Below are positions 43,381 to 61,701 of a stretch of DNA of 64,000 bases, piece by piece. Position numbers and translations under genes: made by a program. The notes beneath the pieces are model-generated. The model saw only the letters and a program-made list of their open reading frames with translations, was not told the origin of the DNA and searched no databases. The stretch is from Vagococcus zengguangii (GTDB taxonomy: Bacteria; Bacillota; Bacilli; Lactobacillales; Vagococcaceae): NCBI RefSeq assembly GCF_005145005.1, contig NZ_CP039712.1:1780501-1844500 (forward strand). The letters are read 5' to 3'. Numbering within the stretch: position 1 is the first letter of the stretch; each line of letters starts with the position of its first letter.

Positions 43381-44940
43381 ATGAAAAAAATTGTTTTAGG
43401 GATAATATTAGGGAGTTTCTTTGTGAATAGCGGTCTTGCCATTGCTACTGAGCAAACTAGCGATTCATCTTCAGATATAGAAATCGACACGAGCGCTATA
43501 AGCTCGACACTTGAAACGATTTCAGCGACTATTAATTCGGAAGTTGAGACTTCTTCTACAGTCGAAGAATCGATGACGAGTGAAACAAGCGTGGAAGCAA
43601 CTAGTGACAGTTCGGCTGTTAATTCTAGTGATAGCATGAGGACAACAGCGACCAATACGGCTACGGTTAATAGCGAGGACACGATGTCAACTGAGACCAA
43701 TGCTAACGTGAGTGCTGATGATGCGTTATATCAACAGTATTTAAACGATAATCGACGTGATGTGATGTCATACGATGAGTATCAAGCCTTCACTATGGCT
43801 ATGAGTCCAAAAGCCAACCTACGAACCATGTCAGCAACCAACACGCAAGAAATTATCAATCGTGCAACTGGTGAGCGTAAACAAATTGTCGCTAAAGCTC
43901 TAAATTATTTAGGTTCAGGTTATACACAAGTCTACCCTGATCGTTTAGGGATTAAAGCTTTTGATTGCTCTGGTTTGACTTATCGTGTTTATAAAGAAGT
44001 ATTAAACCGTGATATCGGTTCGTATACACTCCCGCAAGAGTCTTCTGGTACACAAATTGCGGTAAAAGATGCAAAACCTGGTGATTTACTATTTTGGGGA
44101 AATCGTGGTGCTACTTATCATGTAGCCATATATCTAGGAAATAGTCAGTACATCCATGCGCCAAATTATGGCCAAACGGTCAATGTTTCACCTATTTATT
44201 GGAATGAGTTTCCACCAAGCTTTGCCCTACGTATGAATTTGAAAGAAAGCAACACGATCAACTTAAACGATTATTGGACAACCTCTCCAGGTAAAGTCGT
44301 GAATTTAAAAGCGATTGATTATTATCGTTCACCAGAGTTTTCTTCATCTACGAGAGTTGGCACTTACGCACTAGCAACACGCCTAGATGTCTCCGGTGTT
44401 GTCAAAAATAAAACAGGAGTTCCTGTCTTAAAATTAAAAAATGGTTATTATGTGATGGCCGAACGCTATTGGATGCAAAAATTTACGTATGCATCGATGA
44501 AGACGACAAAGTATAGTATTTCAACAGATAAAACGACACTTTATAAGAATATTACGTTGATGACCGCAAAATCTAATAGCTCACGTGGAAAAGTCTTTAA
44601 TGTCAAAGGAAAATATGTGTTAGAAAACGGTGCTGTAATCTACTCACTTTACAACAAAAACAATACATGGGCCGGTTATATTTTAAATAAGGATATGATA
44701 CCCGTTAAATACACGAGTTGGAACAAAAAAGTTGTAATCACAAAGAAAAACTATTCATCGTATAAAGATTTATTCTTTAGTGGTAAGAAAATTTCTAATA
44801 CAAGTAGCCATCTCAACAAACAATACACTGCCAAAGGCTACTACGTACTTGGTAACGGACGTAAGTATCTATCGCTATATGACAAAAATAATAAGTGGTA
44901 TGGCTATTTGAATGCTAATGCTACAAAGACTGTTAAATAG
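43381..44940 (+). CDS. Secreted NlpC/P60 peptidoglycan hydrolase with GW-like wall-binding repeats
   Basis: 519-aa exported protein. Signal peptide (residues 1-22), a Ser/Thr/Glu-rich linker (25-115), and an NlpC/P60 domain (about 155-275) with Cys196 in FDCSGL, His247 in YHVAIYL and His259 as third residue. The C-terminal region has about three GW-like repeats, the last matching the pattern of the neighbouring surface proteins (YVLGNGRKYLSLYDKNN...GYLNA). It should cleave stem peptides (gamma-D-Glu/diamino acid bond) in the wall and be retained non-covalently. A promoter of its own lies in the 43302-43380 interval by position. Confidence 0.92.
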   Translation: MKKIVLGIILGSFFVNSGLAIATEQTSDSSSDIEIDTSAISSTLETISATINSEVETSSTVEESMTSETSVEATSDSSAVNSSDSMRTTATNTATVNSEDTMSTETNANVSADDALYQQYLNDNRRDVMSYDEYQAFTMAMSPKANLRTMSATNTQEIINRATGERKQIVAKALNYLGSGYTQVYPDRLGIKAFDCSGLTYRVYKEVLNRDIGSYTLPQESSGTQIAVKDAKPGDLLFWGNRGATYHVAIYLGNSQYIHAPNYGQTVNVSPIYWNEFPPSFALRMNLKESNTINLNDYWTTSPGKVVNLKAIDYYRSPEFSSSTRVGTYALATRLDVSGVVKNKTGVPVLKLKNGYYVMAERYWMQKFTYASMKTTKYSISTDKTTLYKNITLMTAKSNSSRGKVFNVKGKYVLENGAVIYSLYNKNNTWAGYILNKDMIPVKYTSWNKKVVITKKNYSSYKDLFFSGKKISNTSSHLNKQYTAKGYYVLGNGRKYLSLYDKNNKWYGYLNANATKTVK

Positions 44941-44947
44941 TTAATAG

Positions 44948-44992
44948 CACAAAACAAGCGTAGACCTTGGTGAGTCTACGCTTGTTTTGTGT
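44948..44992. terminator. Long bidirectional hairpin terminator
   Basis: CACAAAACAAGCGTAGAC pairs perfectly with GTCTACGCTTGTTTTGTG around an 8-nt loop. It lies between convergent surface-protein genes. Confidence 0.75.
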
Positions 44993-59096: not shown

Positions 59097-59558
59097 TTGA
59101 AACCAATACTATTAATCACCACAACCATTGCTTTAGTTACTTGTCTAACCGCTTGCAAGGGGACTGATTCAAAAACTAGTACCAGTAATGAGACTAGTAC
59201 TGAAACTAGCTCGATTATTGAAGCACAGAATGAAACCCATACCCAATTAGTTGATTCTTCAGATTTAGCCGGGACACCAAATGGTCAATTAACCCCCGAA
59301 GTTAATGGGCAAACGATTGATAGCTATTCAGCTTATGATCAATTAAGTGTTTCAGATCAAAATCAATTAATCTATAACTATTTAGTAGGTGCACTAACAG
59401 CCCTAGCTGGAGATGAAGCTGGCGCTAAAGAACTTCTAGATGAACAAGGGTATCAACTAGAATCAGGGAGTGCACTATTAAAAAAATTACGGGAGAAACA
59501 GTCTGATTTAGATTTCAATCAAGCACTGATTAAACTGGTCGGACAAGTAATAGAATAA
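59097..59558 (+). CDS. Small secreted lipoprotein of unknown function
   Basis: 153-aa protein. Signal peptide followed by lipobox LTAC at residue 17-20, then a Ser/Thr/Glu linker (22-50) and a helical C-terminal half (SAYDQLSVSDQNQLIYNYLVGALTALAG). No family recognised. It starts with TTG 59097, preceded by AAGGAGTG at suitable spacing; no ATG is available. It is followed after 31 nt by the C39-domain surface protein and may be co-transcribed with it. Confidence 0.8.
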   Translation: MKPILLITTTIALVTCLTACKGTDSKTSTSNETSTETSSIIEAQNETHTQLVDSSDLAGTPNGQLTPEVNGQTIDSYSAYDQLSVSDQNQLIYNYLVGALTALAGDEAGAKELLDEQGYQLESGSALLKKLREKQSDLDFNQALIKLVGQVIE

Positions 59559-59589
59559 AAAAGGAAAAATAAGAAGGGATCACTTAAGA

Positions 59590-61701
59590 ATGAAAAAATC
59601 ACTAAAAAGTAGTTTAACACTGATGCTAGTTTCAAGTATGACATTAGCGACAACAACACCTGTTCTAGCAATCACTGCTGAGCAAGACCCAGCGTCAACT
59701 ACTAACGAAGCAACACCACTAACTAACAATTCAGAAATGCTTTTAGACAGCTCGCTTGAATTGACGAAAGAACCATCTACTGACAGCGAAATGGACATGA
59801 ATACTGATAATCCATCTGATGAGTCGCTTGAGTTTTCCGAGGAAGCAACAATTGCTGAAACAACTGATAGCAACGAAGCAACTTCACTTGAAGATAATAG
59901 CAACCTAACAACAACTGATAGTACTACGTCCTCTTCAGATGAAACAACTGTCACTGGATTAACAATTGCTAAAGAAAAAGCGACACAACAATTTGTGACA
60001 ATTACTAATAACAATACAATCATTTGGTCAGAAAAAATTGAAGAACAAGCGCTTGCTAATACAGCGGACGTCTATTTACAAACATTCTTATCAAAAGACA
60101 TTAAAACCATTAATGGTAAAAACTACTATTCACTTTACACGCAAAAAGATGAAAAAGAGATGTTTTACGGTTACGTAAGTGAAAGTGCCTTACAACAGGC
60201 TGACGGACGTCAAGGTATTTACCAATCGTACGGTAAGTACGTCACAATCACTAGCAATAATTATTCAATTTATAGCAATTTTTCTTGGTCAGTTAAAAAC
60301 TCCACCAAAAACATTTACCAAAAAACTTACTTAGCTAAAGGAAAGTATCAACATTACAACGGTTTAACCTATCTTTCTTTATACGATAACAACGGAACAT
60401 GGATGGGTTATGTCAACGCCAATGCCACTAAAGTTGCTGACGGACGCCAAGGGTTATACCAATCGTTTGGTAAATACGTCACAGTCACTAGCAATAACTA
60501 TTCACTTTACAGTAACTTTTCTTGGACAGTTAAAAATTCTACCAAAAATATTTATCAACAAACGTATTTAGCTAAAGGAAAGTATCAACATTACAACGGC
60601 CTAACTTATCTTTCTTTATATCACATCAATGGCAAATGGATGGGTTACGTCAATGCCAATGCTACTAAGGCTGGTGAAGGACGTCAAGGGGCGTACTTAG
60701 CTTACAACAAGTACGTGACGGTTACTAACGCTAACTACACGACTTATCGTAACTTCTCATGGAAGAACCTAGGCACAACTAAAAACATGAACTTGAAAAC
60801 TTATCTAGCTAAAGGTAAATACGTCCACACTAACGGGATGACTTACTTATCATTATGGGATGATAAAGGAACTTGGTACGGATATGTCAATGCCAACGCA
60901 GTATCAGTGGCTGATGGCGCTCAAGGAATCTACCAAAGCTTCAATCGTTACATTACTATCACTAGCCCTAACTACAGCATGTGGAATAGTTTCAATTGGT
61001 CACTTAGACAGACATCTGCTAAGTTAAACAAAAAAGGCTTCATCGCTAAAGGAAAATATGTCCATTATAATGGAGCAATTTATTATTCAGTTTATGATGC
61101 TTTAGGTAATTGGCAAGGATATATCAACGCCACAGGCACCTCATTAGTTACGTATAAAGCACTTCCTGCAAATTATTATAGTCAAATGGCGATTGGCGCA
61201 TGGTATGGTTGTGCTGCGACATCACTGTATACTGTTTTAAAGGCTAAAGGCTATGTCCCTAATGTTTCACTAGTTAATTTCATTAATGGATTGCCAGTAA
61301 GCAACAGTAATCCTGATGAAGGGCAAATTGGCGATCCATGGGGTAAAACACCTTTCCGACAAGTTATTTCGCCAGTTGGATTAAATAAATATGCTCGTAA
61401 ATATACAAATAATACGGAAATTATTACAGGTAGTTCGATTGATCGCATTATCACTGAAATCAATTCAGGAAACTATGTTCTCTATTGGGGAACTTATAAA
61501 ATGGGCAACGTTGGAATAACTAACAATCCGCAACATTGTATGATTGCTAGAGGTTATAAAATAGTTAACGGAAAAGAATATATCTTAATTCATGATCCAG
61601 GTTACAATTCTCTAACAGGTGATGCGGTTCGTTGGTACGAAAAGAACGCATTTGATAACTACTTAACTTCTAAATACCGTAAATTATTAGTTATTAGATA
61701 A
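59590..61701 (+). CDS. Secreted surface protein with GW-like repeats and C39-like cysteine peptidase domain
   Basis: 703-aa exported protein. Signal peptide (1-27), an acidic Ser/Thr/Glu linker (30-125), then about five GW-like repeats (130-510, with GKYQHYNGLTYLSLYDNNG and relatives). The C-terminal Peptidase_C39_2-type domain (about 515-703) has Cys541 in YGCAATS, His649 in PQHCMIARGY and Asp669 in HDPGY. No ABC transporter or bacteriocin lies next to it, so a wall or host-protein substrate is more likely than leader processing. AAGGGA precedes ATG 59590. Confidence 0.9.
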   Translation: MKKSLKSSLTLMLVSSMTLATTTPVLAITAEQDPASTTNEATPLTNNSEMLLDSSLELTKEPSTDSEMDMNTDNPSDESLEFSEEATIAETTDSNEATSLEDNSNLTTTDSTTSSSDETTVTGLTIAKEKATQQFVTITNNNTIIWSEKIEEQALANTADVYLQTFLSKDIKTINGKNYYSLYTQKDEKEMFYGYVSESALQQADGRQGIYQSYGKYVTITSNNYSIYSNFSWSVKNSTKNIYQKTYLAKGKYQHYNGLTYLSLYDNNGTWMGYVNANATKVADGRQGLYQSFGKYVTVTSNNYSLYSNFSWTVKNSTKNIYQQTYLAKGKYQHYNGLTYLSLYHINGKWMGYVNANATKAGEGRQGAYLAYNKYVTVTNANYTTYRNFSWKNLGTTKNMNLKTYLAKGKYVHTNGMTYLSLWDDKGTWYGYVNANAVSVADGAQGIYQSFNRYITITSPNYSMWNSFNWSLRQTSAKLNKKGFIAKGKYVHYNGAIYYSVYDALGNWQGYINATGTSLVTYKALPANYYSQMAIGAWYGCAATSLYTVLKAKGYVPNVSLVNFINGLPVSNSNPDEGQIGDPWGKTPFRQVISPVGLNKYARKYTNNTEIITGSSIDRIITEINSGNYVLYWGTYKMGNVGITNNPQHCMIARGYKIVNGKEYILIHDPGYNSLTGDAVRWYEKNAFDNYLTSKYRKLLVIR

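Follow-up and report, generated by a model that had tools for sequence, protein, structure and literature searches.

Gly-Tyr repeats of the GW domain family in five secreted proteins of Vagococcus zengguangii and their probable docking to a wall glycopolymer

The locus described here raises the question of how five secreted proteins of Vagococcus zengguangii are held at the cell surface, and whether their ligand is the polymer made by the adjoining genes. The window analyzed was a stretch of 64,000 nucleotides (contig NZ_CP039712.1, positions 1,780,501 to 1,844,500), and the five genes, P1 to P5, lie in its region 43381-61701, where all five open reading frames (ORFs) of an original prediction made from the sequence alone were confirmed. 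P1-P5 are probably, at about three chances in four, held non-covalently in the wall by tandem Gly-Tyr (GY) repeats that belong to a subfamily of the GW domain (PF13457) and dock to a wall glycopolymer. The new element is an uncatalogued Gly-Tyr variant of a known GW docking repeat. The proteins and their repeats, the latter placed by profile (aa, amino acid positions), are:

43381-44940, plus strand: P1, with signal-like segment, acidic linker, NlpC/P60 (aa 192-273), DUF5776 (aa 298-362) and two GY repeats
44503-44928, plus strand: GY repeats of P1 (aa 375-438 and 443-516)
45025-46605, minus strand: P2, with signal-like segment, acidic linker, four GY repeats (the first divergent) and two C-terminal Lipoprotein_Ltp stretches
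45292-46221, minus strand: GY repeats of P2 (aa 129-438)
46747-50943, minus strand: P3, with signal-like segment, acidic linker, DUF285/PARCEL repeats, Flg_new (aa 1006-1070) and four C-terminal GY repeats
46750-47691, minus strand: GY repeats of P3 (aa 1085-1398)
51209-54298, minus strand: P4, with signal-like segment, acidic linker, DUF285/PARCEL repeats, four GY repeats, one divergent repeat and a C-terminal tail
51746-52690, minus strand: GY repeats of P4 (aa 537-851)
51494-51679, minus strand: divergent fifth repeat of P4 (aa 874-935)
59590-61701, plus strand: P5, with signal-like segment, acidic linker, one divergent and four further GY repeats, and Peptidase_C39_2 (aa 528-670)
60214-61140, plus strand: GY repeats of P5 (aa 209-517)
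59983-60192, plus strand: divergent first repeat of P5

A profile seeded with one repeat and then iterated identified 20 significant copies of a repeat of approximately 79 residues (two in P1, four each in P2 and P3, and five each in P4 and P5). When the complete genome (2.19 Mb) was searched with a single copy, 19 matches resulted, every one within the P1-P5 genes, and the genome-wide count suggested with the original prediction therefore confined all detectable copies to these five genes. Among 211 aligned repeats the characteristic dipeptide was Gly-Tyr in 197 and Gly-Trp in four, with a Trp two residues earlier in 174, and from these counts the earlier description of a GW-related repeat in which Tyr replaces Trp was correct.

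Three lines of evidence, from sequences that bridge the two kinds, arrays in which both occur and the fold predicted for the repeat, assign it to a Gly-Tyr subfamily of the GW domain. Continuity in sequence was provided by an Enterococcus innesii repeat (L072, aa 211-283) retrieved by the GY query and by PF13457 alike, together with single ORFs of four genomes (G025, G028, G030 and G038) that carry GW-scoring and GY repeats in the same array. The predicted structure of one repeat (mean predicted local distance difference test score 89) was nearest to the solved GW domains 5jqc, 4epc and 1m9s, with Foldseek template modeling (TM) scores of 0.75-0.77 and a root mean square deviation of 2.0 for 4epc and 1m9s, revealing an SH3-like GW fold in a predicted model rather than a solved structure. 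The lysostaphin-type SH3b domain scored lower (TM 0.58-0.60), and a generic SH3b domain was rejected as the closest fold. Like the GW domains of Listeria InlB, Ami, Auto and LygA and of staphylococcal Atl, the GY repeat is tandem and predicted to be SH3-like, is of similar length, and occurs in hydrolases and surface proteins that lack a covalent anchor; it differs in the Gly-Tyr dipeptide, in the Trp that mostly stands two residues earlier, and in that the window repeats are not seen by the Pfam model.

Several results count against this kinship. The defining Gly-Trp was present in only four of the 211 repeats, the isolated window repeats matched no Pfam model, PF13457 included, at E-values up to 10, and the Foldseek E-values were modest (0.003-0.08). 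When the GY profile was aligned by hhalign to the 14 GW repeats that this genome contains, the match was collinear yet fell short of significance (P about 0.06), for which reason the case is carried by the three lines of evidence above. No Pfam or NCBIfam model recognized the window repeats, a genome-wide PF13457 search (E up to 10) matched other genes and none of P1-P5, and searches of Protein Data Bank (PDB) sequences with phmmer and with a profile of the repeat gave no meaningful match. The alternative identity offered by the original prediction, DUF5776 (PF19087), was discarded: the domain matched a single separate stretch outside the GY repeats and in P1 only, and isolated repeats did not match it.

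The five proteins had been described as sharing one repeat, and the family is indeed present in all of them, but identity comparison ruled out a single type and resolved three subtypes: one in P3, P4 and partly P2, a second in P5, and a third in P1. Mean identity was 72% between the repeats of P3 and P4 and 32-47% for the remaining protein pairs, and the nearest relatives of the P1 and P5 repeats were repeats of other species rather than of their neighbors in the window. The P3 repeats had best within-protein identities of 81-99%, and a repeat of P2 was up to 82% identical to one of P4 in spite of the different cargo. The arrays mostly move together with their cargo.

The remaining architecture agreed with the view of five secreted proteins of modular build. 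Each N-terminus carried a basic-hydrophobic segment judged signal-like by eye, and the linkers were acidic and rich in hydroxylated residues (Ser plus Thr 29-38%, Asp plus Glu 17-29%). Pfam confirmed NlpC/P60 and DUF5776 in P1, two Lipoprotein_Ltp stretches in P2, ten DUF285 stretches and Flg_new in P3, three DUF285 stretches in P4, and Peptidase_C39_2 in P5. A motif check of all five proteins found no LPXTG or NPQTN-like sortase motif, in agreement with the original prediction, and PADLOC returned no match for P1-P5. The long ORFs read antisense at 43350, 49835, 53262 and 59580 were disregarded, being reflections of the repetitive coding strand. As a separate observation, the C-terminus of P2 places Lipoprotein_Ltp domains, whose family includes the lipoprotein for superinfection exclusion of TP-J34 (PMC3952083), on a GY-repeat protein with no lipid anchor.

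In relatives, the GY repeat was identified in 31 of 198 sampled Lactobacillales genomes (13 of 54 genera), with more than 80 copies in G028. The partner domains in 42 GY proteins were mostly those of wall enzymes (GH25, C39_2, YkuD, glucosaminidase and NlpC), which extended the modular build beyond the window. The C39_2 cargo that is joined to GY repeats in P5 carried five true GW domains in a protein beside TagF in G025, and Beta-lactamase2 was joined to GY repeats in a G017 protein and to GW repeats in a glucosaminidase adjoining the window, suggesting that GY and GW docking modules can exchange on the same cargo. In the same-genus genome G003, a P1 orthologue with four GY repeats and two DUF5776 domains was present at the corresponding position, P2-P5 were not found at that place, and the sole other GY gene among the matches listed was approximately 0.9 Mb distant. 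The repeats were rejected as commonly phage-borne, as just two short unannotated Listeria phage records matched.

Non-covalent docking through the GW-like repeats is well supported, and attachment of P1-P5 to the surface, with teichoic acid or a similar polymer as ligand, is the most likely arrangement. Because P1-P5 have no LPXTG motif, the repeats are the sole recognized anchor candidate, and their net charge of +3 to +13 makes them suited to a polyanion. In the proposed mechanism the proteins would be secreted and retained without a covalent bond by the basic, SH3-like GY repeats binding a wall glycopolymer, most likely of teichoic-acid type; multiple copies per protein would provide avidity, and the long acidic, Ser/Thr-rich linker would serve as a spacer. 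One kind of docking array could thereby display differing cargo, namely hydrolase-like domains in P1 and P5, Ltp in P2, and PARCEL/DUF285 adhesin-like heads in P3 and P4. Such binding has been described for Listeria, where the GW domains of LygA bind galactosylated wall teichoic acid (WTA) in proportion to GW number and the binding of both LygA and Auto depends on galactose (PMC10335673).

The neighborhood contains genes for making and decorating such polymers, as the original prediction had stated, with the most informative of them outside the window (L062 coordinates):

55850-57550, minus strand: YfhO-like membrane glycosyltransferase (GT-C; PF09586 at 27.5 bits, just under the 28.5 cut-off)
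57550-58470, minus strand: GtrB/CsbB-like polyprenyl-phosphate glycosyltransferase (by sequence; 85% identical copy in G003)
58476-58904, minus strand: GtrA-like small membrane protein, a putative flippase (by sequence and position)
61797-63938, minus strand: TagF-GT4 fusion without a GW domain (Pfam), cut by the window end
L062:3049-5796, minus strand: Amidase_2 autolysin with seven true GW repeats, adjacent to the window
L062:5888-9322, minus strand: glucosaminidase autolysin with seven true GW repeats and a C-terminal Beta-lactamase2, adjacent to the window
L062:10665-14027, minus strand: TagF-GT4 fusion with GW domains located between TagF and GT4, adjacent to the window
L062:15221-18613, minus strand: a second TagF-GT4 fusion of the same build, adjacent to the window

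The order and sequence of the set between P4 and P5 fit a three-component wall polymer glycosylation system, with GtrA and GtrB assigned from sequence rather than by a family scan and the YfhO match slightly sub-threshold. Elsewhere among Gram-positive bacteria, GtrA/GtrB/GT-C-like sets add sugars to lipoteichoic acid (LTA) or WTA (PMC8035078). Beside the conserved GtrB/GtrA pair, the GT-C was YfhO-like here and of PMT_2 type in G003 (L096:6186-7730, minus strand), and the sugar acceptor or linkage may therefore differ between the two species. The TagF-GT4 ORF at the window end encodes 843 aa when read through (L062), whereas the two enzymes outside the window each contain two to three internal GW stretches, and ORFs of comparable size with GW matches were also found in G017, G025 and G028. 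Farther on lies a wall teichoic acid operon with a further TagF, TagG, TagA, TagB, TagH, an LCP protein and TagO (names from sequence), in the same gene order in G003, and the exopolysaccharide (EPS) locus, this operon and the GY genes form a contiguous region.

Three further ORFs of the window were recorded. At 54530-55750 (minus strand), a 406 aa product with N-terminal membrane segments partly resembled PDB 6n1a, ‘Carbohydrate-binding protein’ (E 2.6e-13), and this ORF also adjoins GtrB in G003. A small lipoprotein-like ORF with a TTG start and no Pfam family (59097-59558, plus strand) lies immediately 5' of P5 on the same strand, and a product resembling phage-type lysozyme, in which an SH3-like stretch was seen by eye at the C-terminus (12679-13386, plus strand), is possibly a prophage remnant.

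Linkage of GY and TagF genes was tested in eight genomes by random circular shifts with a 20 kb limit, using positions compiled by hand; the counts cover the matches listed and are approximate because some genome sizes were rounded. A TagF gene lay within 20 kb of 15 of the 48 GY genes (1.3 expected), and five of the eight genomes contained such linkage (0.9 expected). With the discovery genome left out, ten linked GY genes were counted against 1.2 expected (P = 0.0006), and the earlier observation that these genes lie near polymer-making genes thus extended to other genomes at a frequency above chance. Among repeat-rich relatives, six of 11 GY genes in G025 and none of 19 in G028 were near TagF, and no GY gene was linked in G021 or G038; the G028 count rules out linkage to a TagF locus as a general rule. 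TagF was present in 28 of the 31 GY-positive and 82 of the 167 GY-negative genomes (Fisher P about 1e-5, with no adjustment for phylogeny), with five of the 31 GY-positive genomes resting on a single weak match each. Within the genus, G001 was the only GY-negative genome and the only one without a TagF match.

A close known parallel is AtlE of Enterococcus faecalis, which has either GW or DUF5776 repeats depending on the allele. Its activity requires strain-specific decorations of the enterococcal polysaccharide antigen (EPA) made by its own locus, and it was lost when polysaccharide had been stripped from the walls (PMC12208459). In both cases a wall hydrolase with exchangeable SH3-like repeats is encoded in a polymer-decoration locus, and P1 has DUF5776 too; AtlE is a single GH25 enzyme acting with EPA, whereas five proteins with differing cargo are found here, and its dependence on decorations was measured, whereas that of P1-P5 would be a prediction. 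A second parallel is Bcs3, the polymerase of the Haemophilus influenzae type b (Hib) capsule, which resembles TagF and binds its product through an SH3b domain (PMC10299916). The two GW-bearing TagF-GT4 enzymes likewise combine a TagF-family protein with an SH3-like module, although Bcs3 is a Gram-negative capsule enzyme with the module on its C-terminal side and the GW domains here stand between TagF and GT4; product binding by them would be a prediction. Choline-binding proteins of Streptococcus pneumoniae such as CbpL display many effectors non-covalently through a teichoic-acid-binding repeat (PMC5137146); the GY repeat is unrelated to it, and the pneumococcal ligand is phosphocholine on teichoic acid.

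Which ligand the arrays bind has three competing answers. Specific binding of the polymer made and sugar-decorated by this locus, with docking and decoration co-evolving as for AtlE and EPA, is plausible, with AtlE as direct precedent (PMC12208459), but at somewhat less than an even chance. In its favor are the GtrA/GtrB/YfhO-like set between P4 and P5 with TagF enzymes adjoining, the glycosylation of teichoic acids by sets of this kind elsewhere (PMC8035078), the linkage and co-occurrence of GY with TagF, including the absence of both from G001, and the change of GT-C type in G003. It fits less well with the P1 orthologue retained in G003 despite that change, with array subtypes that track the protein rather than the locus, and with the unlinked GY genes of G028, G021 and G038. 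The TagF-family search also gave no match in three GY-positive genomes (G051 and G147 of genus g25, G117 of genus g43), in which the repeats must have a ligand not made by TagF unless the search overlooked a gene. The original prediction named the polymer of the adjoining genes as a possible ligand; the proximity above chance was upheld, and the identity of the ligand is plausible but unproven, in view of the many unlinked GY genes and arrays not homogenized to one local type.

Binding to peptidoglycan, or non-specific charge binding to the wall in what is a general cell-envelope gene region, is rather unlikely. The Listeria Ami GW domain bound purified peptidoglycan and WTA-negative cells (PMC4944223), which also speaks against glycopolymer docking of P1-P5; the strongly basic repeats, the contiguity of the EPS locus, teichoic acid operon and GY genes, and the GY genes unlinked in other genomes point the same way. 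It does not readily explain the linkage to TagF outside the discovery genome, the galactose-dependent WTA binding of LygA and Auto (PMC10335673) or the inactivity of AtlE on stripped walls (PMC12208459). Quite improbable is a third possibility, that the repeats of at least P3 and P4 mainly bind outside partners, such as host or neighbor glycans, instead of anchoring the protein. The large DUF285/PARCEL heads of both proteins and the extra divergent repeat and tail of P4 would suit this role, and the GW domains of InlB bind host glycosaminoglycans as well. The repeats are nevertheless the sole candidate for retention in proteins without LPXTG or another recognized anchor, and the close match of P2 and P4 repeats across differing cargo also argues against it.

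Docking of P1-P5 to a wall glycopolymer further allows a doubtful extension, in which the same polymer would be recognized inside as well as outside the membrane. Within the cytoplasmic TagF-GT4 enzymes, the GW modules would grip the chain as it grows, in the manner of SH3b in Hib Bcs3, and the GW and GY modules of secreted hydrolases and adhesin-like proteins would grip the same chain outside; if true, polymer structure and surface-protein docking would change in step. Among the annotated plasmid matches seen, GY proteins were labeled ‘hypothetical protein’ or given an enzyme name, and recognition of the GW subfamily makes such proteins readable as probably wall-docked. The link between docking module and polymer decoration is disputed for the GW domain itself (PMC4944223; PMC10335673), and the present locus, where GW, GY and DUF5776 modules adjoin TagF and glycosylation genes, is well suited to asking whether docking tracks decoration.

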